This document shows, one piece after another, positions 1-31,702 of a DNA stretch of 35,868 nucleotides. How positions within the stretch are numbered: the stretch's first letter is position 1; every line of letters begins with the position of its first letter. Under the pieces are notes generated by a model. The model was given only the letters and a program-made list of their open reading frames with translations. It did no database searches and was not told the DNA's origin. The position numbers and the translations under genes are program-made. The stretch comes from a virus: positions 1 to 35,868 of IMG/VR virus record IMGVR_UViG_3300025120_000214; one strand, given 5' to 3'.

Positions 1-107
1 GTATCATATCTTGTCTCACTACTGATTGCTGAAGAGGTAATAGCCGACTGCAGCCATAGCAAGCAGAGTAGAACCACCAACGATCCAACCAAGTAGTTTA
101 AAATCAT
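1..107 (-). CDS. Small membrane protein, partial (left allele of the 82-aa gene)
   Basis: The start codon ATG is at 107-105 and the frame stays open to the window edge, giving about 35 residues beginning MILNYLVGSLVVLLCLLWLQ. This is one strongly hydrophobic membrane-spanning or signal-anchor helix. The frame lies inside the 3' end of the 160-aa gene (19-501), and the complete copy at 32790-33038 has the same nested arrangement. The rest of this allele is cut off. Function is unknown. Nested short membrane genes beside a holin and endolysin are often lysis accessories, but no spanin signature is clear here. Confidence 0.4.
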   Translation of the reverse strand, partial: MILNYLVGSLVVLLCLLWLQSAITSSAISSETRYD

Positions 108-501
108 TAATCATTTCTTTCCGTCGTTTTGACTTGGCTGCCAATCGTTTCTTTTCTGCGTCAGCATAATCTTTGATGCGTTTCTTTCGCTCGTCTTGTA
201 TCCCCTTGAAAGTGCCATGCCCAAACCTTTGATCTATAAGTACAGAAACTGTGTAGAGTTCTTCTTCAGCAAGTTTTGCATCTATGGTATCGGACGCAAT
301 TGAACTTATAGAAAAACTACCTGGTGCAGCTTTCTTTGTCTTTGCACTGTCGATCCTTGCCTTGCCATCCAATAGCTGATCGATACTTGATGCAATATCT
401 CGCACACTATTCGCAGTACCAATGCCACTTTTAATAGCATCGACCGCACTCTTGAATGCACTCGCAGCCATGATTGCTTCACCAACCCCAAAACCAAGCA
501 T
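19..501 (-). CDS. Late membrane protein with C-terminal TM helix (left allele, 160 aa)
   Basis: This 160-aa protein begins MLGFGVGEAIMAAS. Its small-residue N-terminus is followed by charged, probably coiled-coil helix around residues 75-130 (KRIKDYADAEKKRLAAKSKR). It ends with one clear membrane helix at about 136-157 (LLGWIVGGSTLLAMAAVGYYLF). The allele at 32950-33441 has the same two ends with a diverged middle. Families like this occur in marine phages next to lysis or tail genes and have no established function. The position between tail-appendage and lysis genes on the circular map fits a membrane-acting accessory or an anchored virion protein. The gene is real because it is conserved in two diverged copies. 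Confidence 0.8.
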   Translation of the reverse strand: MLGFGVGEAIMAASAFKSAVDAIKSGIGTANSVRDIASSIDQLLDGKARIDSAKTKKAAPGSFSISSIASDTIDAKLAEEELYTVSVLIDQRFGHGTFKGIQDERKKRIKDYADAEKKRLAAKSKRRKEMINDFKLLGWIVGGSTLLAMAAVGYYLFSNQ

Positions 502-520
502 GGTTCCCCCTAGTCGTTTA

Positions 521-682
521 CTAATTTATTTGAAATAATACTCCAATGAGCATTGTGATGACGGCTCCCATTCCAATATAAAGAATGGCTTCCAATCTCT
601 TTAAGCGAAAGAACAGCTCCTTAAACTGAATGTTTACCTCTGTCTCCAGTTTTGTAACACGTTGATCTAATGCTTTGGTCAT
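521..682 (-). CDS. XhlA-like small coiled-coil/TM protein (left allele, 53 aa)
   Basis: The frame from ATG at 682 to TAG at 521 encodes 53 residues beginning MTKALDQRVTKLETE. The N-terminal half is a heptad-like charged helix. The C-terminal half is one membrane helix (YIGMGAVITMLIGVLFQIN). This layout matches the haemolysin XhlA-like family often found in phage lysis cassettes; the match is by architecture only. Its ATG overlaps the stop of the 137-aa gene (TAATG), so translation is probably coupled. The right copy at 33461-33622 has identical gene ends and a diverged centre, which supports real coding. Confidence 0.7.
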   Translation of the reverse strand: MTKALDQRVTKLETEVNIQFKELFFRLKRLEAILYIGMGAVITMLIGVLFQIN

Positions 683-1095
683 TAGCTAGGCTTAGTAGGG
701 AATGTAACAGAAGACATATCTAGCGACCCATCGGCTGATAGCTTTGGTGATGCACTTGCTGGCAAGTCACGCAATGATTGTCTATAGGTCTTCCAGTTAT
801 CGGCAAGAGTTACATCAGAGTTTGCCATCCAATCACACTCAGCTAATAGCCTATCTCGCTCAACTCTAAGCAATCGCATAGGCTCTGCATTTGTAAGCTC
901 TGTCTTTTTGTCAGATACAGCTTTCCAAGTTGTGCCAAAGTCACTAGGCGTTGAGCTTTCAATCGCACTTCCATTGCTGTCTGCTCCAGTTACTTTACGA
1001 AACATAGCGTTGAACTCTGCTTCACTTGTAGGCTCACCCCTGAGTACCCACTCTTTGATACCTAATGCTGATATTGCTTGTGATATTGTTGTCAT
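682..1095 (-). CDS. Tail assembly chaperone-like protein (left allele, 137 aa)
   Basis: The C-terminal half carries the pattern RDRLLAECDW...NWKTYRQSLRDLP. This is typical of the Phage_tail_APC family, small tail-assembly chaperones found beside tail-fibre genes. The N-terminal half (GIKEWVLRGEPTSEAEFNAM) is conserved in the right allele at 35249-35662, while the segment just after the chaperone core motif differs. The ATG overlaps the stop of the upstream 169-aa gene by ATGA. It probably helps fold or attach the small appendage proteins encoded directly upstream. The family call rests on the motif and the neighbours. Confidence 0.7.
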   Translation of the reverse strand: MTTISQAISALGIKEWVLRGEPTSEAEFNAMFRKVTGADSNGSAIESSTPSDFGTTWKAVSDKKTELTNAEPMRLLRVERDRLLAECDWMANSDVTLADNWKTYRQSLRDLPASASPKLSADGSLDMSSVTFPTKPS

Positions 1096-1601
1096 TGTTT
1101 TATCTCCTTTAAGGTAATAGTCGTTCCTTGCCTACAATCTTCACTAGACCTATCGCCTAAAAATAAAGTATTTGAAGTATTTGACCTTATTTGCAATTTG
1201 TATACTGTAGCTGAAGTTGTTCCTGGGCTGTCAAGAAACTCAATATGTAATTGGTGCAACTCATCTGCTGAACTATTATACAATGTCCTTGTTGATGATT
1301 GAGCTTTTGCACTCGTTGGCTGTCCGATATTTGTTGAACCTCTTACAATATTAAATGAAGCTATTCTTGAGCCTGTATTCATTCCATAGGCACCACTAAC
1401 AGTAACAAGAACTTTGCTCGTTGAAAATTTTGGTGAAATAGTTAAGGTTACTCCAGTTACATCGACAAAGCTCGTTGACGCTGATTGAAAATGGTCATCA
1501 ACTTTAGTAGTGCTTAGAACTTGCACCACATGACCAGCTGGCATAGCCACAGTTCCAGACGTTGTCTTACCCTGAATTGTATCGACTTTTAACGTAGACA
1601 T
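1092..1601 (-). CDS. Small tail appendage / putative receptor-binding protein (169 aa)
   Basis: The N-terminus MSTLKVDTIQGKTTSGTVAM is a recurrent start in marine phage fibre-like proteins (M-x-TLK-x-x-T-x-x-G). Residues after about 22 (GHVVQVLSTTKVDD, then STSFVDVTGVTLTISPKF) are beta-rich and paralogous to the gene at 1630-2157. Both end in a similar E-I-x-Q. A Ser/Thr/Gly-rich composition fits an exposed trimeric beta-structure. The right allele lacks this gene: there the chaperone abuts the 175-aa-type gene directly. It is therefore a mobile cassette in the appendage locus. Receptor binding is inferred. Confidence 0.6.
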   Translation of the reverse strand: MSTLKVDTIQGKTTSGTVAMPAGHVVQVLSTTKVDDHFQSASTSFVDVTGVTLTISPKFSTSKVLVTVSGAYGMNTGSRIASFNIVRGSTNIGQPTSAKAQSSTRTLYNSSADELHQLHIEFLDSPGTTSATVYKLQIRSNTSNTLFLGDRSSEDCRQGTTITLKEIKQ

Positions 1602-1629
1602 AGTGACCTCATAATTTTGTTATCAATAC

Positions 1630-2157
1630 TCATTGGGCTATCTCCTCTACTTTTATTGAACTGGTATAATTAGAGCCATCATTAATTCTAAATCCCCCAC
1701 TATCTGAGCTAGTAAAATTTTGCATTTGTAGTTTTATTGTTTTTGCGTTTGTGTTTGAAGCACTTACAGTTACTAGTTTATGCAATCTTGCAAAAATAGC
1801 TATTGATGATGAACCACCAATCGCAATCATCATTTCCCTATTATCTCCTGATGCTGAAATATTAGAACCATCAACATTTATGTCCACAGAACCACCATTA
1901 TCATCACTACTTCTAAAACTATAGGCATGAACACTATAGCTAATATGTAAAACACTTGATGCAAGTTTTGGTGTAAATGTAAATGAAGAACCACCAACAT
2001 CAACGTAAGAAGTGCTTGTTGTATTTGTTAGTGTAGTGAAACTATGGAACTGTGTTTGAATAACATGACCTACACTTGCAAACGTGCCATCAGTACTAAC
2101 AGTCGCAGAAGCAGTACCATTCGTATGCTTTATATTTTGTACTAGAAGATTGCTCAT
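1630..2157 (-). CDS. Small tail appendage / putative receptor-binding protein (175 aa, left allele)
   Basis: The best start is ATG at 2157 (MSNLLVQNIKHTNGTASATV), which overlaps the stop of the 63-aa gene as ATGA; a longer start at 2169 is possible. The rest is beta-rich (GHVIQTQFHSF, then TSTSYVDVGGSSFTFTPKL) and paralogous to the 169-aa neighbour. The protein ends in EEIAQ. The 3' part is repeated almost identically at 35659-35868. The locus, composition and paralogy suggest a virion surface protein attached near the short fibre. The host ligand is unknown. Confidence 0.6.
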   Translation of the reverse strand: MSNLLVQNIKHTNGTASATVSTDGTFASVGHVIQTQFHSFTTLTNTTSTSYVDVGGSSFTFTPKLASSVLHISYSVHAYSFRSSDDNGGSVDINVDGSNISASGDNREMMIAIGGSSSIAIFARLHKLVTVSASNTNAKTIKLQMQNFTSSDSGGFRINDGSNYTSSIKVEEIAQ

Positions 2158-2345
2158 ACTATCACCCAATTTCCACCAGAACTTATTGTGACTGTCACTC
2201 CTGATGCTACTGTGATTGTACCAGCTGACATGGCATTATTAGTGCCATCTATAGTCAAAGAATTAGTCACTGTTTGCTCATGCTGTCGAATAACTGGCTC
2301 ATAGCTTGTATTCTCGCCTATCTTTCCTAAATCATATTCTGACAT
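2154..2345 (-). CDS. Small tail-associated protein (63 aa)
   Basis: This is a 63-aa protein with the C-terminal pattern NAMSAGTITVASGVTVTI followed by GGNWVIV. Short proteins with this ending are common beside tail-fibre genes in marine phages; the role is not established. The ATG at 2345 overlaps the TAA of the upstream gene (TAATG), and its stop overlaps the next ATG. It therefore sits in a coupled string of tail genes. It could be a fibre-tip cap or a small adaptor; that is inference. Confidence 0.6.
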   Translation of the reverse strand: MSEYDLGKIGENTSYEPVIRQHEQTVTNSLTIDGTNNAMSAGTITVASGVTVTISSGGNWVIV

Positions 2346-2704
2346 TATGTAATTTCCATTATGCTCATGGTAACGCTTAGCTTATCAGCGACGCTACAGT
2401 CAATTTCTATCTGGTCCGTCGTTTCTAAAACAACCTTACCACCTGCTAGTACGTTTGTGCTTTGCCCTGTGGCTATAGGAATATCTTTTGCTAAGAAAGT
2501 AGTTGTATTAGTAGCTGTTCGACCACCCCCTGACGTATCAGACACAAGTTTAACACTCGCTGTGACTTGTGCTGTGTGAATATTACACAACATCAATCCA
2601 ATAACGACTGTGGTTGTACTTCCCGGGGTAGTATATAAGTCTTCTGGCGTACCAGCAGACGCTGGCATTACATCATGACTAACTAATTTAAAATTATTTG
2701 CCAA
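2345..2704 (-). CDS. Small virion-associated protein, TTG start (119 aa)
   Basis: The start is TTG at 2704, placed correctly after AAAGGAG, and no ATG occurs early in the frame. The protein is beta-rich and Thr/Val-rich (TPGSTTTVVIGLMLCNI) and ends KLSVTMSIMEIT. Similar small proteins lie just downstream of fibre genes in marine podoviruses and are thought to be structural. The gene lies 12 bases downstream of the fibre gene and overlaps the following 63-aa gene. No enzyme motif is visible. Confidence 0.6.
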   Translation of the reverse strand: MANNFKLVSHDVMPASAGTPEDLYTTPGSTTTVVIGLMLCNIHTAQVTASVKLVSDTSGGGRTATNTTTFLAKDIPIATGQSTNVLAGGKVVLETTDQIEIDCSVADKLSVTMSIMEIT

Positions 2705-2716
2705 ATTATTTCTCCT

Positions 2717-4378
2717 TTATCCCAAAGCTATAGCTAATGCAACCGAATTTGCTTCTGCCGTTGCTTCTGTTGTTGCACCAATATCACTCACTACTTCTGA
2801 TGCACTTCTACCCTCAATCGATGTACCATTTACTCTTAGAAAATCATCGTCAGCAATCCCACTTGTTGCGACCAAAACATTGCCATTTGATATACCAGTT
2901 GATAGTGTTGCCGTTGTTGTAATGGCAGTACTATTTAATGTCATAGCATCAGCTTCTAATGTTCCGTCAATATCTACGTTTCCAGATATATCAAGACTAG
3001 CTGCTGCAATCTCACCACTAGCCGTTAATGAGGTTATATTAGGATTTGCACCCGACCCTGCTAAACTTGCCATATCAGCAATAACAGAACTTGTAGCAAG
3101 TAAGTTCATGTCTGCAACGATGTCACTTGTGGCAAGAGTATTGAGGTCACTAACGATATCTGATGTCGCTAGGGTATTGATGTCTGAAACGATATCGGAT
3201 GTTGCTAGGGTATTAAGGTCACTAACAATATCACTTGTTGCTAGTGTATTCATATCTGAAATTACATCACTTGTTGCTAGTAATGCCATATCAGCTATTA
3301 CATCAGCATTTCCTAATAAAGCCATATCAGCAACAACATCAGCAGTTCCTAACAAAGCCATGTCTGTAATCACGGCACTTGCAGCAAGGGCAGAAATATT
3401 TGAGTTTGCACTTGCTACCGTGTTGATATTTGTTTGTTCAGAACTTGTTGGCTTAACATCTATCCAAGCCGATCCGTTATAGACCTTCATGCCTGTACCA
3501 TCGGTCTTAAAATATAAGTCACCAGCGTCTAAATTTGACGATGGATCAGAACTAGCTGCGCCATGATATTGACCTGTGAAGGTTGATAAAGATGTTGCTG
3601 CTGCGGTTGCGCTGCTTGCCGCTGCCGTTGCACTACTGGCTGCCGCTGTTTGTGCCGTGGTTGATGATGCAGCATCCACGATTAAAGACCATTTCGCGCT
3701 ATCTGTATTGGTGGTCAGAGGTTGCGATCCAGAACTTGTGTGAGCCGTGATACATATAAAGATATTATTTGTGCTAGTATCTTTCACCAGGTCACGAACA
3801 ACGTAACTGGTACTAGCTCCCCAATTGCCTTTGAGCGTTCCAATCTCTTGTGTAACCGCAAGCTCTCCAGACCCATTAAAAGACAATAACTTGTTTGCTC
3901 GATCTGTTGATGAGGTAGTAAACTCTGTTGAGGTCATCGTGTTAGTACGACTAATCTTTATAGATCTATTCAACTCTTCGTCGTGCTGTTGTATCATGCG
4001 CACCACTTTGTCGAAATTTGTTTCAAGCGTTTCAGCTGGGAACGGATCATTAGCAACTAGATTTAATGCCTGTGTGTTTGCTAGCTCCGATCTTATAACA
4101 ACTGTTTCGCCGGACGCCGGTCTAAAATCACTTGATGAATAATGAGCATCACTTGTGGTTCCAGTATTGAATTTAAATAAAACTGTGCCGCCGCTCGATA
4201 CTCCAGCACCAGTAACGACATAATGCGTATCTAATGTTTTAACTGTCTCCGACCCTGTTGATGACCGAATGATAACTGTCAGATCTGCATTTGCGAAAAT
4301 TGGGAAATCATAGGCAAAAGAATGAGTCGATCCGTTTCCCGAATAGCTTTTCGAGATTGTAGTAGTGCTAATTGTCAT
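2717..4378 (-). CDS. Tail fibre with T7-type N-terminal attachment domain (553 aa)
   Basis: Residues 1 to about 150 match the T7 tail-fibre N-terminal domain, which joins the fibre to the tail: YSGNGSTHSFAYDFPIF near the start, then FPAETLETNFDKVVRMIQQH. An Ala/Ser-rich stalk (about 235-265) and a common fibre segment (LDAGDLYFKTDGTGMKVYNG) follow. Then come eight 12-residue repeats (340-435) with consensus LNTLATSDIVSD. The C-terminus is short (ending VALAIALG), with no obvious receptor-binding tip or chaperone domain. Host recognition may therefore be delegated to the small appendage proteins encoded downstream. SD GAGG precedes the ATG. Confidence 0.88.
   Translation of the reverse strand: MTISTTTISKSYSGNGSTHSFAYDFPIFANADLTVIIRSSTGSETVKTLDTHYVVTGAGVSSGGTVLFKFNTGTTSDAHYSSSDFRPASGETVVIRSELANTQALNLVANDPFPAETLETNFDKVVRMIQQHDEELNRSIKISRTNTMTSTEFTTSSTDRANKLLSFNGSGELAVTQEIGTLKGNWGASTSYVVRDLVKDTSTNNIFICITAHTSSGSQPLTTNTDSAKWSLIVDAASSTTAQTAAASSATAAASSATAAATSLSTFTGQYHGAASSDPSSNLDAGDLYFKTDGTGMKVYNGSAWIDVKPTSSEQTNINTVASANSNISALAASAVITDMALLGTADVVADMALLGNADVIADMALLATSDVISDMNTLATSDIVSDLNTLATSDIVSDINTLATSDIVSDLNTLATSDIVADMNLLATSSVIADMASLAGSGANPNITSLTASGEIAAASLDISGNVDIDGTLEADAMTLNSTAITTTATLSTGISNGNVLVATSGIADDDFLRVNGTSIEGRSASEVVSDIGATTEATAEANSVALAIALG
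3074..3361 (-). repeat. 36-bp tandem repeats encoding a 12-residue fibre repeat
   Basis: Eight 36-bp units encode successive copies of a 12-aa motif, from MALLGTADVVAD to MNLLATSSVIAD. The units are not identical: the central four are close copies (LNTLATSDIVSD type) and the outer ones have drifted. The fixed spacing of Leu, Asp and Val/Ile fits a regular fibrous stalk. Repeats like this change length easily by slippage or recombination. Confidence 0.85.
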
Positions 4379-21111: not shown

Positions 21112-22380
21112 CTAGAATACGCGATAATCATTCACCGCTGTTTGCTGCGGCGCTTGAAATTGACGCTTGTTTTCTCTTAAACCGACTGCCGCGTATCGCA
21201 AAGCATCGGCGCTATGCGATGACCAATCGTGTTTTATTGTTTTAGAAAATGATCGTGTTCGCTCGTTATACGCTCTGTGATATTGCCTTAGTGCCTCCAG
21301 GCCATGCTTGCAGTTGTCGCGATCAAACCAGGTTCTTCCTATTAACAGCTGCGCTGCATGGATCCCATCATCAATCGGCAGCTTGGGAACCACTCTAAAA
21401 TTTATTCCCAGATCCCAGGCAACCTCACGCCTACTCTTGCCGGATCCTAATTCTCTAACCTCGATATCGTGCGGCGCATAATGGGTATCATAGAGATACT
21501 CACGTTCTTGCAGCACCCGGGCGTAGTGCGGCAATCCCTCACCTCTCGCCTCGTAATAATCGATGAAATGTACCGCTCGTCCTACTGTTTGGACAAACCA
21601 AATCGCTGTGCTATCGCCGACACCCAGATCCCAAAAGGTATCGACACGGACAGAGGCATCATAGGGAACCTTTGTGATCCTATTATCTTGAAAACACTTC
21701 TGCAATTCCTTGCCAAAGATTGATCCCGGAACATTCGCCACCCAGGAACATTCGTATTCCTGATTGTATTGGTCTTCGGACATCCCAATCCGCGCTGAAT
21801 CAAGTTCGGATTTAGGTAATATCCCTGTTTCACTCGCCTTATAGGTCGCTGAAAACCAGTCATCGGCCGCTGTTGCCGCCTCGTAGAGTTCGAAAAAAGC
21901 ATTGTGTCCTCTTGGTGTACCAATAAATAAGGCTTTTCCTTCCCGATCTGACAGCGCTGGTCGTATAACTTCCGGAAATAAGTTCTCCGGCATGTCCGCC
22001 ATCTCGTCCAAAACCGCCATATCTAAATATATTCCACGCAAACTCGCTGGATTTTCGGATCCTAACAGCTGTATTCTTGCGCCGTTGGGTAGATCACAGC
22101 GCAATTCCGTTTCGTGAAACCTCGCCATCGGTATATTTATGGCAAATTGTTTTAAATAATCCCATGCCACTTGCTTGGCCTGACGATACGTTGGCGCAAT
22201 ATAGGCATAACGTGGACTTTTTTGCTGGCACAAAACCGCTTCCCTAAGAAGATGATTGATCGCCATCACTGTCTTTCCGGCCCTCCGGTGCATCACCACT
22301 ACCGCCCACCGGTGCTTGTCCAGCTGTTCGTGTAGCTCCTTTTGCACCTTTCGCGGCGCGTAGGGTATCTTTATTTCCAT
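21112..22380 (-). CDS. terL: Terminase large subunit (422 aa)
   Basis: The ATPase domain shows Walker A HRRAGKTVMA (RRAGKT 32-37), Walker B VLDEMADMP (123-131) and IGTPRGHNAFFELY (coupling motif region). The nuclease domain has FWDLGVGDSTAIWF with Asp at about 251 and a late SSHSADALRY acidic site. It drives ATP-dependent packaging and cuts concatemers. Length is at the short end for the family but domains are complete. It lies downstream of the DUF3310 gene across a 127-base gap. Confidence 0.93.
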   Translation of the reverse strand: MEIKIPYAPRKVQKELHEQLDKHRWAVVVMHRRAGKTVMAINHLLREAVLCQQKSPRYAYIAPTYRQAKQVAWDYLKQFAINIPMARFHETELRCDLPNGARIQLLGSENPASLRGIYLDMAVLDEMADMPENLFPEVIRPALSDREGKALFIGTPRGHNAFFELYEAATAADDWFSATYKASETGILPKSELDSARIGMSEDQYNQEYECSWVANVPGSIFGKELQKCFQDNRITKVPYDASVRVDTFWDLGVGDSTAIWFVQTVGRAVHFIDYYEARGEGLPHYARVLQEREYLYDTHYAPHDIEVRELGSGKSRREVAWDLGINFRVVPKLPIDDGIHAAQLLIGRTWFDRDNCKHGLEALRQYHRAYNERTRSFSKTIKHDWSSHSADALRYAAVGLRENKRQFQAPQQTAVNDYRVF

Positions 22381-22507: not shown

Positions 22508-22831
22508 TTAGGGAGCGTCTTTTGCGCTGAAGTCAATATCGTCTTTTTCTTTCCAGGCATTGCCGCCTTGGATTTTCCGTATCGTCCTGGCATGTGTCTC
22601 CTCCTCAAATTTAATTAACGCTTTTAAATACCACTCGGCTTTCTTGAGATCCTCGACGCCATTCTTATCCTGATAACGCCACATATACTTTGCAATCGTG
22701 CCTTTACAATACGACCCAAAGCCATCACCCAATAACTCCTTTATCGAGTCAATACACTCCGTCTTGCCTTGCGTATAATGCACCGGCTTATTCACCGCAT
22801 CATGCGGAATTAAACGCTCTATCTTTTTCAT
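22508..22831 (-). CDS. DUF3310 family protein (107 aa)
   Basis: The start chosen is ATG at 22831 (MKKIERLIPHDAVNKPVHYT). It overlaps the methyltransferase stop as ATGA and is preceded by AGGACGAAT. The core NKPVHYTQGKTECID, IAKYMWRYQDKNGVEDLKKA and WYLKALI is the DUF3310 signature, common in phages and sometimes loosely called nucleotide kinase. Function is not established. Right after the stop is a strong SD-like AAGGAG with no good start codon. Confidence 0.85.
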   Translation of the reverse strand: MKKIERLIPHDAVNKPVHYTQGKTECIDSIKELLGDGFGSYCKGTIAKYMWRYQDKNGVEDLKKAEWYLKALIKFEEETHARTIRKIQGGNAWKEKDDIDFSAKDAP

Positions 22832-23364
22832 ATTCGTCCTATAAATCGCGTTTCCGTAGTCTGGGTATATTTGGAGAAGAAATACCAACAAACATTATCC
22901 TTACCGGTGTGTTTACTATCTGGGATCCACTTCACGCGACCAACAGACACTATCTTCCGGCAATACTTAATCAACTCCGAGGCTTGCTTGGTGTGCATCC
23001 AATCCGCATCAAATAGCAGCCATGTAGGTTTTAAAGATATAAAATACTCAATCATAGGATGCAGCAAATCACGGCGCCAAGGAGGGTTCGTAATTATCGC
23101 ATCAGCCTCTAAGATCTTCATCTCATCCAACTCCAGTGCATCTACTCGATACACATCCTGTCTACGCGGCTCTATATCACTCGCATAGCAGCATATAACA
23201 CCAGCCAGGGCTAACATGTCCACCAACTGCCCATTGCCAGCACACGGCTCACAAAACAGCTTTATCGATGGCGTATCCAAATGATACAGCAGCGGCTTTA
23301 CCGCCTCCGGTGGTGTCGGATAATAATCGCGCTCAACACGATCGAAACTACTTCTTTTACCCAT
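22828..23364 (-). CDS. DNA adenine N6-methyltransferase-like protein (178 aa)
   Basis: The protein has a YPTPPEAV start region (15-22), the SAM-binding motif CEPCAGNGQLVD (38-49) and the catalytic-type NPPW (93-96). These define class I amino-methyltransferases that methylate adenine N6. At 178 aa it lacks a clear target-recognition domain, so it is a small solitary phage enzyme. It may protect phage DNA from restriction or mark packaging sites. SD GAGG precedes ATG 23364. It is the first gene after a 248-base non-coding gap downstream of terS. Confidence 0.78.
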   Translation of the reverse strand: MGKRSSFDRVERDYYPTPPEAVKPLLYHLDTPSIKLFCEPCAGNGQLVDMLALAGVICCYASDIEPRRQDVYRVDALELDEMKILEADAIITNPPWRRDLLHPMIEYFISLKPTWLLFDADWMHTKQASELIKYCRKIVSVGRVKWIPDSKHTGKDNVCWYFFSKYTQTTETRFIGRI

Positions 23365-23612
23365 GTGACCTCAATGACAATACATGTGTCCCGATAGGGT
23401 TATATATATGTATAATGCGCGCGCGTGCGATCCCGGGGGTAGGGTCAGGCGGTATTCATACAAAAACACCAGCGTAAGAGCTACCATCCCCCATGCTTTC
23501 CAATAAAATAAGATAGATCAGAGACTTTTGCCACAAGATTGCCACAAACACAGCGAAATGCCCAGGCCTCGCGCGTGCGACTGCCAGCAGTTACAGTAAT
23601 GCCGAACCGAAA
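23365..23612. other. Repeat-rich non-coding gap beside terS
   Basis: This gap holds two direct copies of CGCGCGTGCGA exactly 150 bases apart (23420-23430 and 23570-23580), an AT-rich TATATATATGTATAATG stretch, and a tandem TTGCCACAAGA-type element (23528-23549). The last element is a 22-base inverted copy of the element at 31678-31699 near attP. No gene is supported here. The gap lies between the methyltransferase and small terminase genes, so promoter, packaging-site or recombinase-site functions are all possible. Confidence 0.5.
23528..23549 (-). repeat. Distant copy of the attP arm-type tandem element
   Basis: On the minus strand this reads as two adjacent TTGTGGCAA-type units. Over 22 bases it is identical to 31678-31699, which lies beside the attP core in opposite orientation, about 8.1 kb away. 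Chance identity of this length is unlikely. It could be an integrase arm site, a scar of rearrangement, or the site of another DNA-binding protein. Confidence 0.7.
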
Positions 23613-24029
23613 TCAGCCAGTCTTAACATCTACATCGCCTTTCTCCCAGGACAACGTGATCATCCCCGACACGCCTGGTGCTGTTACATCCTCTGCCTTA
23701 TTCCGTATGCCTTTCGGCTGTAGCTGTGTGTGCCTCTTCTGCAATGTATCAACCTTTAGTCGCCTCATTTGCACGTCAGCCATCATTTGTTTCGGATCAT
23801 TAGGCATTGGTGCACTGAGCACCTCATCGATCTCATCCTGGATGCGTTCACCCTGGATAGCTTTTGCTCGGATGTACATCTCATGCGCTTGGTCGTTCTT
23901 CTGCACATAACGATACACTGTGTCGTCGCTTGGATATCCTGGTAGCTTTGCTATCTGTCGCATCGAGTTCCCCTCGATCAGCTTACGGCAAATATCCGTC
24001 ATTAACTTTATGCTCATAATTCTTGACAT
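23613..24029 (-). CDS. terS: Small terminase subunit-like protein (138 aa)
   Basis: I chose ATG 24029 (MSRIMSIKLMTDICRKLIEG) because AGGAAG precedes it; the longer frame to 24176 has an unconvincing N-terminus and no support. The N-terminal half is an HTH-like region (NSMRQIAKLPGYPSDDTVYR). The middle (YIRAKAIQGERIQDEIDEVL, then RRLKVDTLQKRHTQLQPK) is the helical oligomerisation part typical of phage small terminases. It should recognise the packaging site. The large terminase is three genes downstream. Confidence 0.78.
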   Translation of the reverse strand: MSRIMSIKLMTDICRKLIEGNSMRQIAKLPGYPSDDTVYRYVQKNDQAHEMYIRAKAIQGERIQDEIDEVLSAPMPNDPKQMMADVQMRRLKVDTLQKRHTQLQPKGIRNKAEDVTAPGVSGMITLSWEKGDVDVKTG

Positions 24030-24043
24030 TGATCTTCCTAATG

Positions 24044-24078
24044 ACCAGGCACAAGCGGTGGAGCGCTTAATGCCTGGT
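24044..24078. promoter_or_regulatory. Strong 13-bp hairpin just upstream of the terS ribosome-binding site
   Basis: ACCAGGCA (24044-24051) pairs with TGCCTGGT (24071-24078). Inside, AAGCG (24053-24057) pairs with CGCTT (24064-24068), leaving a 6-base loop. There is no following U-run, so it is not a standard terminator. It ends about 15 bases before the terS start, in the 5' leader. It could regulate terS translation or serve as a packaging/DNA-binding site. Confidence 0.55.
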
Positions 24079-24216
24079 AAGTTTTCAGAAAAAATATGAA
24101 AAAAAGACCCCCAAAACCTTGTACTCTGGCAGAGCATTCGATCAATATTTGCAGTATAACCGCAAGATCTTGGCAATCTTACCTGAAAAGGTACTACATT
24201 TTGCGCATTCGTGCAA

Positions 24217-26823: not shown

Positions 26824-27729
26824 ATGCCACTACCACAGCTGACACCAGAATACGCATTACGATTTAATTACTATCATCACAGTAATCCGATCGGGTCACC
26901 TCGAGGAAAAAAACTTTGGGAAAAAATTGTACTGCGTCCACTACTTTCTGACCTCTTTTTGAAGGATAAAGAACAATGGGAACTATTAAACCCTAGTCGA
27001 GCAGTAGGCCCAAGCGCCATCGGTGGTGTCGCGGTACAAAAAGCCGTAGACAGCGTGTTAGGAATTGATGGATCAGAACCCATGAAACTTGATGAAGCCA
27101 TCTCCTGGGCCAAATCTGAAGGCCTTTTTTTTAAAAATCGTTACTTTTTAGGGGAAAACGTGGGTGATCAGGACGATATGCTGGTTGAAGTCTACAAACA
27201 GCTGATTGGTGACATTATAAAAAATTCAGTTCTTGGTTTAGAGAAAGCAATGGCCAGGGAAAACAAATATATTGGGGAAATCACTCTTGAGGACAAGTTG
27301 CCAGGGTGTGAACTACCACATCAGACTAGACCGGACTACGCAAGACGCGGTGATCTGAAAACTAAATGGAGCAGCTTAAAGAAAAGTTCCTCAGTTCCGA
27401 AAACATTAAACGGCATGTTTGAGAAAAGCTGGCTTTATCAGATTGCTGGTTTTTGGGCACTGAATGGACAGCAGCCGCCATTCCTCGTTTGTGCCAATCA
27501 TAAAGAATATAGAATTTTTGACCAGGATAACTCTCCAGAATTAAGTGATGAGAACCTTGATCGAATTGTGCAGCAGATGGCTAGACATCATCAAACTACC
27601 GAGCATTTATTAAAAAAGGCAGACAACCTGGATGATCTCTTTCGATCTCTCGATCCAGAGTGGGATCATATGTTTGCTTGGAACCTACAACCAGAACTTA
27701 TCGAACTAGCCAAAAGGAGTTTCAAATGA
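26824..27729 (+). CDS. PD-(D/E)XK recombination exonuclease (301 aa)
   Basis: The catalytic region is TRPDYARRGDLKTKWSSLKK: Asp171, Asp177 and Lys179 form the D...D-x-K pattern. YQIAGFWALNG follows, as in Cas4/RecB/lambda-exonuclease-type nucleases. The N-terminal AIGGVAVQKAVDSVL resembles the early conserved helix of these enzymes. SD AAGGAG lies 8 bases before ATG. It is directly upstream of a single-strand annealing protein, the classic exo-annealase pair for recombination. Processivity and polarity are not visible from sequence. Confidence 0.72.
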   Translation: MPLPQLTPEYALRFNYYHHSNPIGSPRGKKLWEKIVLRPLLSDLFLKDKEQWELLNPSRAVGPSAIGGVAVQKAVDSVLGIDGSEPMKLDEAISWAKSEGLFFKNRYFLGENVGDQDDMLVEVYKQLIGDIIKNSVLGLEKAMARENKYIGEITLEDKLPGCELPHQTRPDYARRGDLKTKWSSLKKSSSVPKTLNGMFEKSWLYQIAGFWALNGQQPPFLVCANHKEYRIFDQDNSPELSDENLDRIVQQMARHHQTTEHLLKKADNLDDLFRSLDPEWDHMFAWNLQPELIELAKRSFK

Positions 27730-28439
27730 AAGACCAGCTGACCGCTGCAATGAACGAGATAAAAGGATTGAATAAAGAAGGCGTCAAGATGCAAGGCGGT
27801 AAGAAATATACTACTGTTGCTGTACGCGTCGAGATATTTAGAAAATACTTTCCAGATTATTCTATCGTTACATCTACTAAAGTCGATGACGGAAAAAGAG
27901 TTGTTACCTATTGCGAGATATTTGGGCCAAACAATGAAAGACCTATTGCCACCGGAACAGCTGAAGAGATACGCGGCAGCAGCCACGTTAACAAAACGTC
28001 GGCTATGGAGGCTGGAGAAACTTCATCGATTGGCAGAGCCTTGGCCTCGCTAGGCTTGCATGGCGGTGAGTTTGCTAGTGAGTTTGAAATGTCTAACATT
28101 GAAACAAAGGCAAAGAATGTTGAGGAGCAGAAAAAGGCAGCTGACGTAAAACCCAAGGATGTGCCAAAAGTGGATCCACCAAAAGAAGATCCAGAGGACG
28201 CAGATATATTGGAAACATTGCGTGAAGAGACAGCAAATTTTAGTAAACAAAACGCAGTTGAAAGAAACGCACAATGGTTTATCGAAAGTTTCGAAAAGGC
28301 AAAGAGCGTGGAACGCATGAACATAATATTTAAGGAAAACCAAAAAAGCTACAGCGCTTTGAAGAAGTTGGATGAGTCAGCTGCGGAAAAGGTTAAGGCT
28401 TTTTATGAAATTAGAGAGGAGCAACTAGCACATGGATAA
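27726..28439 (+). CDS. Single-strand annealing protein, Rad52/ERF-like (237 aa)
   Basis: The start is ATG 27726, overlapping the exonuclease stop (ATGA) with AAAAGGAG upstream. The core segment GTAEEIRGSSHVNKTSAMEA then GETSSIGRALASLGLHGGEF is the conserved block of ERF/Rad52-like phage annealases (compare ETSA-x-GRAL). The C-terminal 110 residues are acidic, Lys-rich helices probably separate from the core. It should anneal ssDNA made by the exonuclease, allow recombination with related phages, and help form concatemers. Confidence 0.78.
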   Translation: MKDQLTAAMNEIKGLNKEGVKMQGGKKYTTVAVRVEIFRKYFPDYSIVTSTKVDDGKRVVTYCEIFGPNNERPIATGTAEEIRGSSHVNKTSAMEAGETSSIGRALASLGLHGGEFASEFEMSNIETKAKNVEEQKKAADVKPKDVPKVDPPKEDPEDADILETLREETANFSKQNAVERNAQWFIESFEKAKSVERMNIIFKENQKSYSALKKLDESAAEKVKAFYEIREEQLAHG

Positions 28440-28848
28440 AATTAAAATGCCAGGACAAAGGCCGCATTTCGGTAATGGAAGGTTCAAAATGCTTTCCGGA
28501 TTAAATGCAGACGTAGAATATCAAGCAGCTGCATGGCTGCAATTTAAGACAACAAGGAACCCAGAGGGAAAACCAATGCCGCAATCAGCTGAACAACGAA
28601 AAGCAATAGCTAACCTGGTTGATGCTATGCGAGAGGCAGCTGTATTACATGGTGACGATTGTCAGATGCAGCTGGGAATAAGTATTAAGGAAAAAGCTGG
28701 GCCAGGAGATCCTTGGACAGTGATCGAGCGCCCTCTCCTATTCCTAGACGTACCAGAGGAAATGAGAAATCAGAGTTTTGCAGACACACCTCCAGCATGG
28801 GATAAAGAAAATGAAAATAGTGGAAATGACAACAAACCCTCTTGGTAA
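28432..28848 (+). CDS. Unknown early recombination-operon protein (138 aa)
   Basis: The ATG overlaps the annealase stop by 8 bases (ATGGATAA), so the genes are coupled. Residues about 55-70 are Gln-rich helix and 75-110 beta-like (MQLGISIKEKAGPGDPWTVI). The last 20 residues are acidic/Asn-rich and end NDNKPSW. This loosely recalls an SSB-type acidic tail, but no OB-fold motif was recognised. An ssDNA-binding helper is one possibility from context. Confidence 0.55.
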   Translation: MDKIKMPGQRPHFGNGRFKMLSGLNADVEYQAAAWLQFKTTRNPEGKPMPQSAEQRKAIANLVDAMREAAVLHGDDCQMQLGISIKEKAGPGDPWTVIERPLLFLDVPEEMRNQSFADTPPAWDKENENSGNDNKPSW

Positions 28849-29026
28849 ATCGCTATTTACTGTGACCGAAGCTGGAAAGCTGCTGTTTCCTTATCTAAGC
28901 GAAAAAGCTGCTTACCAGAGGCTGCGCCGGATCCTGGCAAGCGGTGACTATGATACGCACAGTAGCGGACGAACAACCTACCTGGCTCGACATGAATTAA
29001 AACGATTGGGAGCCAATTTAAACTAA
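28811..29026 (+). CDS. Small excisionase/MerR-like HTH protein (71 aa)
   Basis: A start at 28811 (MKIVEMTTNPLGKSLFTVTE) or 28826 is likely; both overlap the 138-aa gene and have weak SDs. The core FTVTEAGKLLFPYLSEKAAY followed by RRILASGDYDTHSSGRTTYL then ARHELKRL is a winged-HTH of the excisionase/HTH_17 type: recognition helix, wing with Gly-Arg-Thr, final helix. It could be Xis for the integrase at 29976-31211 or a regulator. It is last in the early plus operon, followed by a terminator. Confidence 0.6.
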   Translation: MKIVEMTTNPLGKSLFTVTEAGKLLFPYLSEKAAYQRLRRILASGDYDTHSSGRTTYLARHELKRLGANLN

Positions 29027-29039
29027 TGACCTCCTAACT

Positions 29040-29065
29040 AACAGCGCTCCGGCGCTGTTCTTTTT
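29040..29065 (+). terminator. Rho-independent terminator of the early plus operon
   Basis: AACAGCGC (29040-29047) and GCGCTGTT (29052-29059) form an 8-bp stem with loop TCCG, followed by CTTTTT. It starts 13 bases after the HTH gene. The same GCGC-TCCG-GCGC centre is used in the second terminator at 29937. Confidence 0.88.
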
Positions 29066-29074
29066 AAGTTATTT

Positions 29075-29091
29075 GTAACACATTGTGTTAT
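29075..29091. promoter_or_regulatory. Operator O3 before the second plus operon
   Basis: GTAACACATTGTGTTAT has 7-base arms around ATT with one end mismatch and shares GTAAC-N7-GTTAY with O1 and O2. It lies right after the terminator and 97 bases before the gene at 29188. A promoter downstream (TTGCAA 29097-29102, then AATAAT about 18 bases later) is possible. A second inverted repeat ATTGAC...GTCAAT follows. Confidence 0.6.
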
Positions 29092-29187
29092 TTTACTTGC
29101 AATCATTGACGCGTTGAGTCAATAATAGTGAAGAACGGATCAAGTGATTCGAAACCAAATCCCAAAAACAAACAGAAAGGACACTAA

Positions 29188-29655
29188 ATGAGTGCATACT
29201 TAGTCGCGCCAGAACAAATTTCAGAGATGGTCAAGTGGGCCGTATCAAGACGACACAAATGCTACTATTACAATCTCTTCACAAAGAAAGAGATAGACAC
29301 CGATCCAGAAAATCTGGTTAAGATCTTAGCAAAAGCTAACGTAGACAGTATCAACGCAAGGTACAACGAGCAAGACAACAGCGCAGATTTTGTTGCTGAT
29401 TGTTTAGCAGAACTTAACACTGGCCCAATATCTTTGGTCGGTAAAAGCTATGTGCCTAATCTTCACCTTACTGCTGCTGACATTTACAGAATGTGCAGCA
29501 ACTACGATTACCAGGCTTGCGAGGTCAACGATTGGATCCATCAAGATGCTTACTGGATTGTGCAAGCTATCAAACACAATGCTGCGGATGTTATGTCTGA
29601 CGTAGCGCAGCATAAGTGGGGATACAGCAAAAACAACAAGAAAGGAGTTGCTTAA
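29188..29655 (+). CDS. Conserved-type phage protein of unknown function (155 aa)
   Basis: SD AGAAAGGACACTAA precedes the ATG. The sequence (MSAYLVAPEQISEMVKWAVS; later IYRMCSNYDYQACEVNDWIH and WGYSKNNKKGVA) resembles a widespread phage and prophage family with the NYDYQACE pattern, whose function I do not know. It is mostly helical and soluble. Repressor-type O3 upstream suggests expression at induction or early after infection. Confidence 0.6.
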   Translation: MSAYLVAPEQISEMVKWAVSRRHKCYYYNLFTKKEIDTDPENLVKILAKANVDSINARYNEQDNSADFVADCLAELNTGPISLVGKSYVPNLHLTAADIYRMCSNYDYQACEVNDWIHQDAYWIVQAIKHNAADVMSDVAQHKWGYSKNNKKGVA

Positions 29656-29975: not shown

Positions 29976-31211
29976 TTAGTAGCGCAGCGCTGCTTGATCT
30001 TCTCTAGCTGTTTCCTCCGGATCCTCAGAGTAATCATCCAGCCAATGACCATAAGTTTTGGTTGTGATTGTTGTATCTGAGTGACCCAGCTGGTTCGATA
30101 CTTTCCAGATGCCATCCTTTGTGCTGCCTTTTAAGGCCAACTGAGCGGATGCAAAATAATGACGTAGTTCGTGCCAGGTAATGCGCGGAACACCAGCTGC
30201 TGTGGCTGCTCTGGTGATCTTCTTGATGAACATCGAGGGATTTACTGATCGACCTTTCTGACTCATCCAGATTAAATCTTCTTTTGGTGGTTTTCCCTGG
30301 CGCATATATTCTTCTTGTAGCGCCTTGATAACGACCGGTGGAAACCGCAATCGCCTATTCGATTTCTCTGTTTTTGTTTCCGCAACATTATGGTATCTAT
30401 CGATGCCTTTGTTAATCTCGATAATGCGAACATCAAAATTTACATCGTTCCAGGTTAGTGCTCTTTGCTCACCCTGGCGTATTCCGGTTTGCGCTGCAAC
30501 GAAAGCTGCTAGCCTCCAATTACATCTTTTGTATCCGCCAGGATCCATGTTGCTCGTATCAACCGGCAGATGCTCCAGGATCCCCTCGATAGTCGAGCGC
30601 TGGACGCGATCGATCTTTGCTTTCCTGGTAGATTTTTTTCCGCCACTCTTTGGTCGAGTTTCACGAAAAATATTTTGCTTTGTGAAACCAGCTCTAACAC
30701 AGAACGATCCGAAATCTGTGTAGTTTGCCCAATAGTTTTTAACAGTTTTCAGTACGCGACCTTTGATCGTTTCCGGATCAATAATTCTGAATACAATTGT
30801 GGGATCATCAAAGAAATTTTTTGCTGACATTTCACGAACTGAAGTGCCCTCAATTTTAATGTTGAGAAGGAAGTTAATATCGCGCATTGAGTTCTCAAAA
30901 CTATGATCTCGGATCACACCATGATCGATATCCATTTTTCTCGTTTTTGTGTAGCAACACTTCTTATTAGTCGGCTCACATTTACCGCAATTAAAAACTG
31001 TTCCCATCCTAACTTCAGCGCGCCCTTTCGAATGCAATAAGATATTTTCTGCTATGTGATCCGCATACTTTAAAGCCTCCTCTCTTGTAGCAAACCATTG
31101 TTGTAAAACACCATGCTTTCGGGCATCGACCACATACGGCTTTTTGGATCCTTTGCGCGCAGCACTTGGATAATATCTTACCAGGTTAATTGTTTCTTCT
31201 TTTGTTAGCAT
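29976..31211 (-). CDS. int: Tyrosine recombinase integrase (411 aa)
   Basis: The catalytic residues are visible: Arg245 (TGIRQGEQRALTW), likely Lys283, His347-x-x-Arg350 (TWHELRHYFAS), His377 (LGHSDTT) and Tyr387 (TKTYGHWL). The N-terminal 65 residues look like an AP2-type arm-binding domain (KKPYVVDARKHGVLQQWFAT). Unusually, a Cys-rich motif (75, 78, 85, 86: NCGKCEPTNKKCC) follows. SD AGGAGGGATCA is strong. attP is upstream at 31551-31573. The enzyme should integrate the phage into a tRNA gene. Confidence 0.93.
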   Translation of the reverse strand: MLTKEETINLVRYYPSAARKGSKKPYVVDARKHGVLQQWFATREEALKYADHIAENILLHSKGRAEVRMGTVFNCGKCEPTNKKCCYTKTRKMDIDHGVIRDHSFENSMRDINFLLNIKIEGTSVREMSAKNFFDDPTIVFRIIDPETIKGRVLKTVKNYWANYTDFGSFCVRAGFTKQNIFRETRPKSGGKKSTRKAKIDRVQRSTIEGILEHLPVDTSNMDPGGYKRCNWRLAAFVAAQTGIRQGEQRALTWNDVNFDVRIIEINKGIDRYHNVAETKTEKSNRRLRFPPVVIKALQEEYMRQGKPPKEDLIWMSQKGRSVNPSMFIKKITRAATAAGVPRITWHELRHYFASAQLALKGSTKDGIWKVSNQLGHSDTTITTKTYGHWLDDYSEDPEETAREDQAALRY

Positions 31212-31220
31212 TGATCCCTC

Positions 31221-31403
31221 CTAGAAATAAATAGAGGGATCTGCATCAACAGCCTGGTTTAATCCTTGCCGGATCAAATGCAGCTGGTCAGCTGATAAAA
31301 CGATTTTCTGATTCTGTTTGGTATGTACGACCCAATTTGTTTCGGTTTCTGTTAGATCGTGTAACTGCTGTAACTGCTCTGACTTCTCAATAACTTTTTT
31401 CAT
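31221..31403 (-). CDS. Small protein upstream of int (60 aa)
   Basis: This 60-aa protein begins MKKVIEKSEQLQQLHDLTET and is Gln/Leu/Lys-rich. It starts after GGAGATCTAA, and its stop is 10 bases before the integrase start, so the two are co-transcribed. It lies between int and attP, where small excisionases or int regulators often occur. No HTH is clear, so a recombination-directionality role is only positional. Confidence 0.5.
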   Translation of the reverse strand: MKKVIEKSEQLQQLHDLTETETNWVVHTKQNQKIVLSADQLHLIRQGLNQAVDADPSIYF

Positions 31404-31507: not shown

Positions 31508-31550
31508 AGGCTAAAAAATTGCTAAGTTATTGTATTTATTGGGGAATTTG

Positions 31551-31573
31551 TGGTGCGGGTGATAGGACTTGAA
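31551..31573 (-). other. attP core, 23 bp matching a tRNA 3' end
   Basis: On the minus strand this reads TTCAAGTCCTATCACCCGCA followed by CCA: the T-loop, T-stem 3' half, acceptor strand, discriminator and CCA of a tRNA. The T-stem 5' half (should be ATAGG) is not present, so it is only the att core. The acceptor (5' side GCGGGTG in the host tRNA) suggests a leucine-type tRNA, but this is inference. Integration would restore the host tRNA 3' end. Confidence 0.85.
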
Positions 31574-31590
31574 ACCCCATTCTACCCAAT

Positions 31591-31669
31591 AGTAGATGAT
31601 ATTTAATGATATTTAATGATATTTTATGACACTTAAACTGATTCTTAGTATCATCTATTATCATCTACT
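31591..31669. repeat. Inverted repeat and 10-bp repeats beside attP
   Basis: AGTAGATGATA at 31591-31601 and TATCATCTACT at 31659-31669 are a perfect 11-bp inverted repeat, within runs of 10-bp direct repeats (ATTTAATGAT and TATCATCTAN). It could bind Xis/Int/IHF-like proteins, or form the 3' hairpin of the lysis operon, which ends at 31700. Confidence 0.65.
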
Positions 31670-31677
31670 ATCATCTA

Positions 31678-31702
31678 GTTTGTGGCAATCTTGTGGCAAT
31701 CA
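31678..31702 (+). repeat. Arm-type tandem pair, right of attP core
   Basis: TTGTGGCAATC is present twice in tandem, and the pair overlaps the endolysin stop codon (31700-31702). Bases 31678-31699 are repeated exactly in inverse at 23528-23549. Confidence 0.65.

Follow-up and report, generated by a model that had tools for sequence, protein, structure and literature searches.

A tRNA-Leu attP core in a marine phage and a matching arm-type repeat pair beside its terminase genes

Among described systems, the closest to the locus analysed here are phage attachment sites copied from the 3′ end of a tRNA gene, in whose T-loop class the core runs from the T-loop to the CCA, the tRNA is restored and the integrase gene adjoins the site. 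Two further systems serve as reference: the integrase and attP of lambda, whose core stands between arm pairs, and Cre/loxP of P1, where loxP lies near pac. The phage in question is IMG/VR record IMGVR_UViG_3300025120_000214, and the window referred to throughout is the whole analysed stretch of 35,868 nt. Its attP resembles the T-loop class in all three of these respects, the differences being that homology with the host extends 28 bp past the CCA and that int follows the restored tRNA downstream, reading the same way; on its own it is an ordinary example of tRNA targeting, of an already-known kind. With lambda it has in common the core with its flanking arm pairs, the catalytic residue set and a fold match to 1z1b, whereas a further arm pair here adjoins the terminase genes. 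Bases 1-4000 of lambda (cos, nu1 and A) hold no copy of AGTCACTAT, which we take to be lambda's arm motif, within one mismatch, and bases 27000-29500 hold two. As in P1, a recombinase-type site lies beside packaging genes; unlike in P1, the enzyme is an integration integrase, the site has arm repeats, and recombination at it is a proposal.

The nearest phages are pelagiphages of the HTVC010P type, which have a similar terminase neighbourhood: the large terminase subunit (TerL) shares 51-56% identity with its nearest matches among pelagiphage records, one of which is HTVC010P, and tail tubular protein B shares 50-57%. They differ in host, which here is the MED-G56 group and not Pelagibacter. 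Four pelagiphage records were compared; an integrase is present in HTVC028P, and none is annotated in HTVC010P, HTVC106P or HTVC203P. Titles and abstracts of the open-licence literature, and passages of PMC11288001 and PMC10111431, yielded no description of an integrase site beside terminase genes, and the terminase-side site is unreported as far as that literature shows.

The interpretation developed below, which we hold with good confidence, is that a 23-mer in the window constitutes the tRNA part of an attP core of about 51 bp that is used by a lambda-type integrase, and that the same enzyme very probably also binds a third arm pair. The features of the attP region are as follows.

31551..31573, minus strand: attP core, tRNA part (T54-A76 of tRNA-Leu(UAG)), from tRNA alignment and genome matches
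31523..31573, minus strand: entire region of homology between attP and attB (tRNA, 23 nt; 3′ trailer, 28 nt), 50/51 identical to empty site L034
31484..31504, plus strand: P-side arm-type pair, situated between core and int: TTGTGGCAA / CTGTGGCAA, with a 12-bp period
31680..31699, plus strand: P′-side arm-type pair, TTGTGGCAA twice, 11 bp apart
31589..31677, no strand assigned: two blocks of 10-bp repeats (31589-31628 and 31646-31677), mutually inverted, a second motif class
31221..31403, minus strand: 60-aa ORF between attP and int, no family match
29976..31211, minus strand: tyrosine integrase, 411 aa (PF00589, 3.7e-17; catalytic residues)

On the minus strand the 23-mer reads, in order, T-loop, 3′ T-stem, CACCCGC, discriminator A and CCA, as the first-pass annotation had proposed, and it is a single copy in the window, remaining so when up to three mismatches are allowed. 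The phage base preceding it is T where the tRNA has G53, so that the tRNA match ends exactly at T54. The annotation's statement that no full tRNA is present agrees with ARAGORN, which reports no tRNA gene in the window. The att homology is longer than the 23 bp first described, since it continues past the CCA into the trailer. That the 23-mer is a chance or relic match, with the true attP elsewhere, is exceedingly improbable. None of 100 shuffled sequences matched it, and a chance match was dropped on that result; an identical core occurs at 22 other IMG/VR loci, none with a tRNA, beside integrases that are, where in reach, 25-100% identical to that of the window; and the attR-type junction described below already refutes the chance reading for the relative that carries it. 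Such a range of integrase identity at one core indicates that several integrase lineages use it.

One scan of a species-genome collection placed the exact 23-mer at 20 loci, and at 17 of these it ends a complete tRNA-Leu (ARAGORN with flanks), with anticodon TAG (UAG) in 15 and CAG in two. The 5′ end is GCGGGTG in all 17, and the acceptor stem GCGGGTG/CACCCGC with discriminator A that had been deduced from the phage is thus present in real tRNA genes. The other three loci are a 3′ fragment away from that locus's tRNA (L041), a copy cut near the end of its stretch (L042) and a phage junction (L037). Because the 23-mer also ends tRNA-Leu genes in records of Clostridia and of the gammaproteobacterium Fluviicoccus, as well as of Hyphomicrobiales, it cannot alone name the host, and in this form the earlier claim that it would do so fails. 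The claim holds for the 28 bases past the CCA, which point to marine alphaproteobacteria of one genus-level group, MED-G56 among them. These 28 bases are common to the phage and to empty site L034 in the marine single-cell genome AG-918-C19; a second empty site (L038, in AG-435-J13) is 92% identical over the stretch 31523-31573. Both genomes, together with AG-414-C21 and the L031 genome MED-G56, whose record title is Rhodobacteraceae, belong to one genus-level group of 22 genomes, nine of which have the core within two mismatches. A 16S gene was not found in 11 of the 12 genomes examined, and the host name therefore rests on this grouping and on record titles; the taxonomy has no entry called MED-G56.

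Evidence of integration comes from AG-414-C21 (L037/L071). Before the core stands a phage P′-side arm, 94.9% identical to L012 over 351 bp with core and trailer included, and after it host DNA, 91% identical to L038 over 482 bp with the core included. Judged by these two flanks, the locus is a junction of attR type, left by a phage closely related to that of the window. Of the two core copies that the proposed duplication would place at the prophage borders, the one at the attR-type end is seen, and the far junction (attL) is not in the contig. Downstream of the junction are two further degenerate cores, with one and two mismatches, the first of which carries an arm 84% like that of phage L019; by their sequence these are older insertions at the same tRNA, and with the attR-type junction they indicate that tRNA-Leu(UAG) has been used repeatedly. 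In the orientation of L071 the three stacked att cores lie at 2003, 3587 and 4271, with decreasing fidelity. No integrase match at 1e-30 was obtained among 394 genomes drawn from the host family, and within the genus seven of 22 genomes gave matches, all of them weak, with no complete prophage; as no genome with a close relative of the integrase was found, the evidence for lysogeny consists of one end of one relative. An RNase_T-exonuclease ORF (L037 5507-7186, minus strand) adjoins the junction where the window has a lysozyme-like gene, and near the junction L037 matches only a last part of that gene. In the attP of several wider relatives (G432, G435, G438, G439 and G446-G448) an intrinsic-terminator-like hairpin with a T run stands directly after the tRNA CCA, and in these the phage seems to bring the terminator of the tRNA.

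The tyrosine integrase gene adjoining the core is a further agreement with the attP assignment. Residues R245, K280, R350, H377 and Y387 are invariant in 23 aligned integrases and H347 is present in at least 90%; we take these to be the catalytic residues of tyrosine integrases. The integrase model aligns with lambda Int (1z1b) over model residues 7-399, with a Z of 18.6 and an rmsd of 13.2. Residues 11-56 are predicted to adopt a β-β-β-α fold, which is known for arm-binding domains. No Pfam arm-domain match was found in the integrase, and the fold list covers mostly residues 64-399. The list also includes a tyrosine-recombinase fold named as a phage repressor, phi3T SroF (9rd5 and 9rgl). The small ORF between attP and int is represented by 17 aligned sequences, that of the window included, of 60 or 69 aa.

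Across the phages, each side of the core carries an arm pair made of 8-9-bp direct repeats 11-12 bp apart, and the distance of the P-side arm from C′, read in 16 phages, is 61-63 bp in 14 and 74-75 bp in the other two. The arm motif varies between phages and agrees across both sides of the core, L018 being the exception. Motifs were compared with integrase N-termini over 120 pairs from 16 integrases, four others (L008, L019, L020 and L021) having been dropped as too distant. For pairs with the same motif (n = 18) mean identity is 91% over the N-terminus and 92% over the body, against 58% and 76% for pairs with different motifs (n = 102). L017 and L018, whose arm motifs differ, are 99% identical in their bodies and 72% in their N-termini. 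L002 breaks the rule, its N-terminus being 97% identical to that of L003 and yet accompanied by another arm motif. By this comparison the arm motif tracks the integrase N-terminus, L002 and L018 excepted. L018 has different arm motifs on its two core sides and the arms of L002 misfit its integrase N-terminus; either these are hybrids of two prophages or they reflect misassembly. The 10-bp repeats between arm and core fall into the classes TATCAT, TTTGCAT, TAACG and TTACG (window and L002-L023), and the class changes in unison inside one phage and independently of the arm motif. That an excisionase reads them is a guess.

A search of the window for the arm motif located a further pair, referred to below as the distal pair, among the following features.

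23613..24176, minus strand: terminase small subunit (terS), phrog_1482
23365..23612: intergenic gap between terS and the methyltransferase-like ORF, containing the distal pair
23528..23547, minus strand: distal arm pair, TTGTGGCAA twice, 11 bp apart
22828..23364, minus strand: DNA methyltransferase-like ORF (phrog_799), between terS and terL
21112..22380, minus strand: terminase large subunit (terL)

The attP thus appears not to be the only integrase-type site in this phage. Across the phages the distal pair sits 8-11 kb from attP, in the terS-terL gap, and it is found in the same place at 13 of 13 further loci with TerL at least 91% identical and enough upstream DNA, some of these contigs having been counted already. 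The pattern extends to the wider family (TerL 72-76%), whose tRNA cores and motifs are different. When tandem 7-mers were scanned without a preset motif, nine of 23 contigs had one motif at three or more places, namely the two attP pairs and the terminase-gap pair, compared with none of 460 shuffled contigs; the scan misses less perfect pairs, and it passed over G423, G426, G446 and G443, which were read by their own motifs or in the gap alone. Each of the 20 integrase-bearing phages that possess the gap carries a pair there, perfect (8/8) in 18 and 7/8 in two, and in 18 of the 20 at most 3 of 100 shuffles were equally good. Among nine integrase-less relatives whose gap was read, one (G437) has a perfect tandem pair, with a lag of 10. 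The motifs at attP and in the gap match in 18 of the 19 phages that have both (the 20 minus G443, whose attP is not in hand) and in part only in G446, a count that covers 11 motif classes, inside which close relatives are not independent. In all 17 genomes compared, the distal pair runs opposite to the attP pairs, the other orientation occurring in none.

Relatives and other phages give a measure of how such repeats occur elsewhere. The integrase-less L122/G431 carries TCTTAGA repeats upstream of terS, outside the gap. Venkman, with no annotated integrase, has several tandem motifs that each occur at two places, and two places alone consequently prove little. In HTVC011P and HTVC019P, integrase-bearing phages of another family, no tandem motif is common to the int region and the terminase genes. 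HTVC028P is a cultured case, examined as a test once the pattern was already known. Its integrase is 15% identical to that of the window, and no other phage record matched it at 1e-5. TAGTGAAT occurs six times in the genome, four times in the attP gap beside int and twice in the gap beside TerL, and its 19-nt attP core, sought outside the attP gap, is matched best in the terminase gap, with four mismatches. Since the layout recurs beside a nearly unrelated integrase, the site would seem to be retained for the benefit of the phage and not to have been inherited with one integrase.

For the anatomy of the distal site, the 120 bp before the distal pair were searched in each phage for the half-sites of its own core, set 7 bp apart. 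Outside the window's clade a core-like element matching 8-10 of 12 bases is present in 10 phages, and in nine of them it lies 41-42 bp from the pair, which is the attP spacing minus about two helical turns; its overlap sequence differs from that of attP in the cases read. In these phages the distal site resembles an att site that has its own overlap. In the window's clade the element matches 6-7 of 12 bases in six of six phages, which is not above background.

What reads the distal motif can be approached by asking which proteins change with it. TerS is 100% identical in L111 and G424, whose motifs are different, and so TerS is not the reader. More generally, TerS and the methyltransferase are up to 99-100% identical across motif changes, and both were dropped as readers for being constant while the motif changes. 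Over the same changes the integrase N-terminus shifts and its body is 95-99% identical. The integrase very probably binds the distal pair, this being the simplest account because the motif follows its N-terminus while the other two proteins stay the same. That the repeats are read by another phage protein, the integrase not being the reader of the distal pair, is quite improbable; it draws on L002, which breaks the N-terminus rule, and on binding being deduced from sequence, and it has against it the constancy of TerS and the methyltransferase just described.

In the proposed mechanism, a lambda-type tyrosine integrase with two kinds of DNA site would recombine attP with the host's tRNA-Leu(UAG) gene at the 3′ end of that gene. 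The tRNA would be restored, since the phage carries a copy of this end together with the trailer. The catalytic part would act at the core and the N-terminal β-β-β-α domain would bind the arm pairs on both sides, with the integrase also binding the third, inverted pair in the terS-terL gap. The sequences show the core, the empty attB, the attR-type junction of a relative, the arm pairs and the covariation of motif and N-terminus; from these we infer that the integrase occupies the distal site in the cell and has a role there, most likely in choosing between integration and packaging.

How it would do so admits several readings, among which an operator or packaging mask and a lox-like recombination site rank about level, with a three-site complex less likely. 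As an operator, the distal site would let bound integrase lower terminase expression or mask a packaging site, favouring integration. This reading is tentative, if a serious contender: it accords with the fixed place of the pair in all 20 integrase-bearing phages, with a perfect pair in only one of nine integrase-less relatives, and with the repressor named in the fold list, but a spaced core-like element would be superfluous to an operator, and a scan for sigma-70-like promoters, the one type sought, found none in window positions 23300-23700. Such an element at a fixed 41-42 bp outside the window's clade, with an overlap unlike that of attP and beside terS, would suit a recombination site, two copies of which the integrase would recombine. 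Phage DNA would in this way be cyclised or resolved, in the manner of Cre acting on lox in P1. The copies would come from a dimer, a concatemer or terminally redundant ends, and the different 7-bp overlap would bar a reaction with attP or attB. Permuted DNA would also suit the scattered map positions at which the phage contigs end and the lack of terminal repeats seen in them; T4 gp17 is among the closest solved sequences to the window's TerL, and T4 packages its DNA by headful. Against recombination stand the single arm pair with no second side, the weak core-like element in the window's own clade, and the fact that no recombination junction was seen and neither pac nor cos located, and we regard both the reaction and this origin of its substrates as possible but doubtful.

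A third arm bridged to attP within the integration or excision complex, for instance as a check of circularity, would account for the constant inversion, the common motif and the same 11-12-bp period. It is nonetheless improbable, as the map distance to attP varies by kilobases and a core-like element of its own would be unnecessary. A broader picture, which we consider rather unlikely to hold in full, is that phages of the HTVC010P type with an integrase have one enzyme and two att sites that do not cross-react, so that a single protein would do the work of both lambda Int and P1 Cre: attP would serve the host tRNA, and the packaging-side att site, with its own overlap, would let the enzyme make phage DNA circular or resolve it. 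With many phages competing for one tRNA, the specificity of the arms would then diversify in step at all three places, insulating neighbouring prophages from each other's integrase.

The attP ties an uncultured marine phage group to a host genus and to a tRNA-Leu site that has been used more than once. If the integrase binds the terminase-side site, an integration enzyme would be coupled to the packaging of DNA across a widespread family of marine phages, and the matched integrase N-termini and arm motifs would form a natural series from which arm specificity could be learned. About 1314 bp upstream of TerL in L112 there is a distal pair with motif GGGCCACAA, which has no attP counterpart among the fetched cores and predicts an unseen class of integrase N-terminus. 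In the gap (window 23365-23612 and its counterpart in relatives), a possible cos, pac or origin is suggested by a TATATAyGTATA-like block with a G+C-rich block after it, seen near the distal pair in several relatives.
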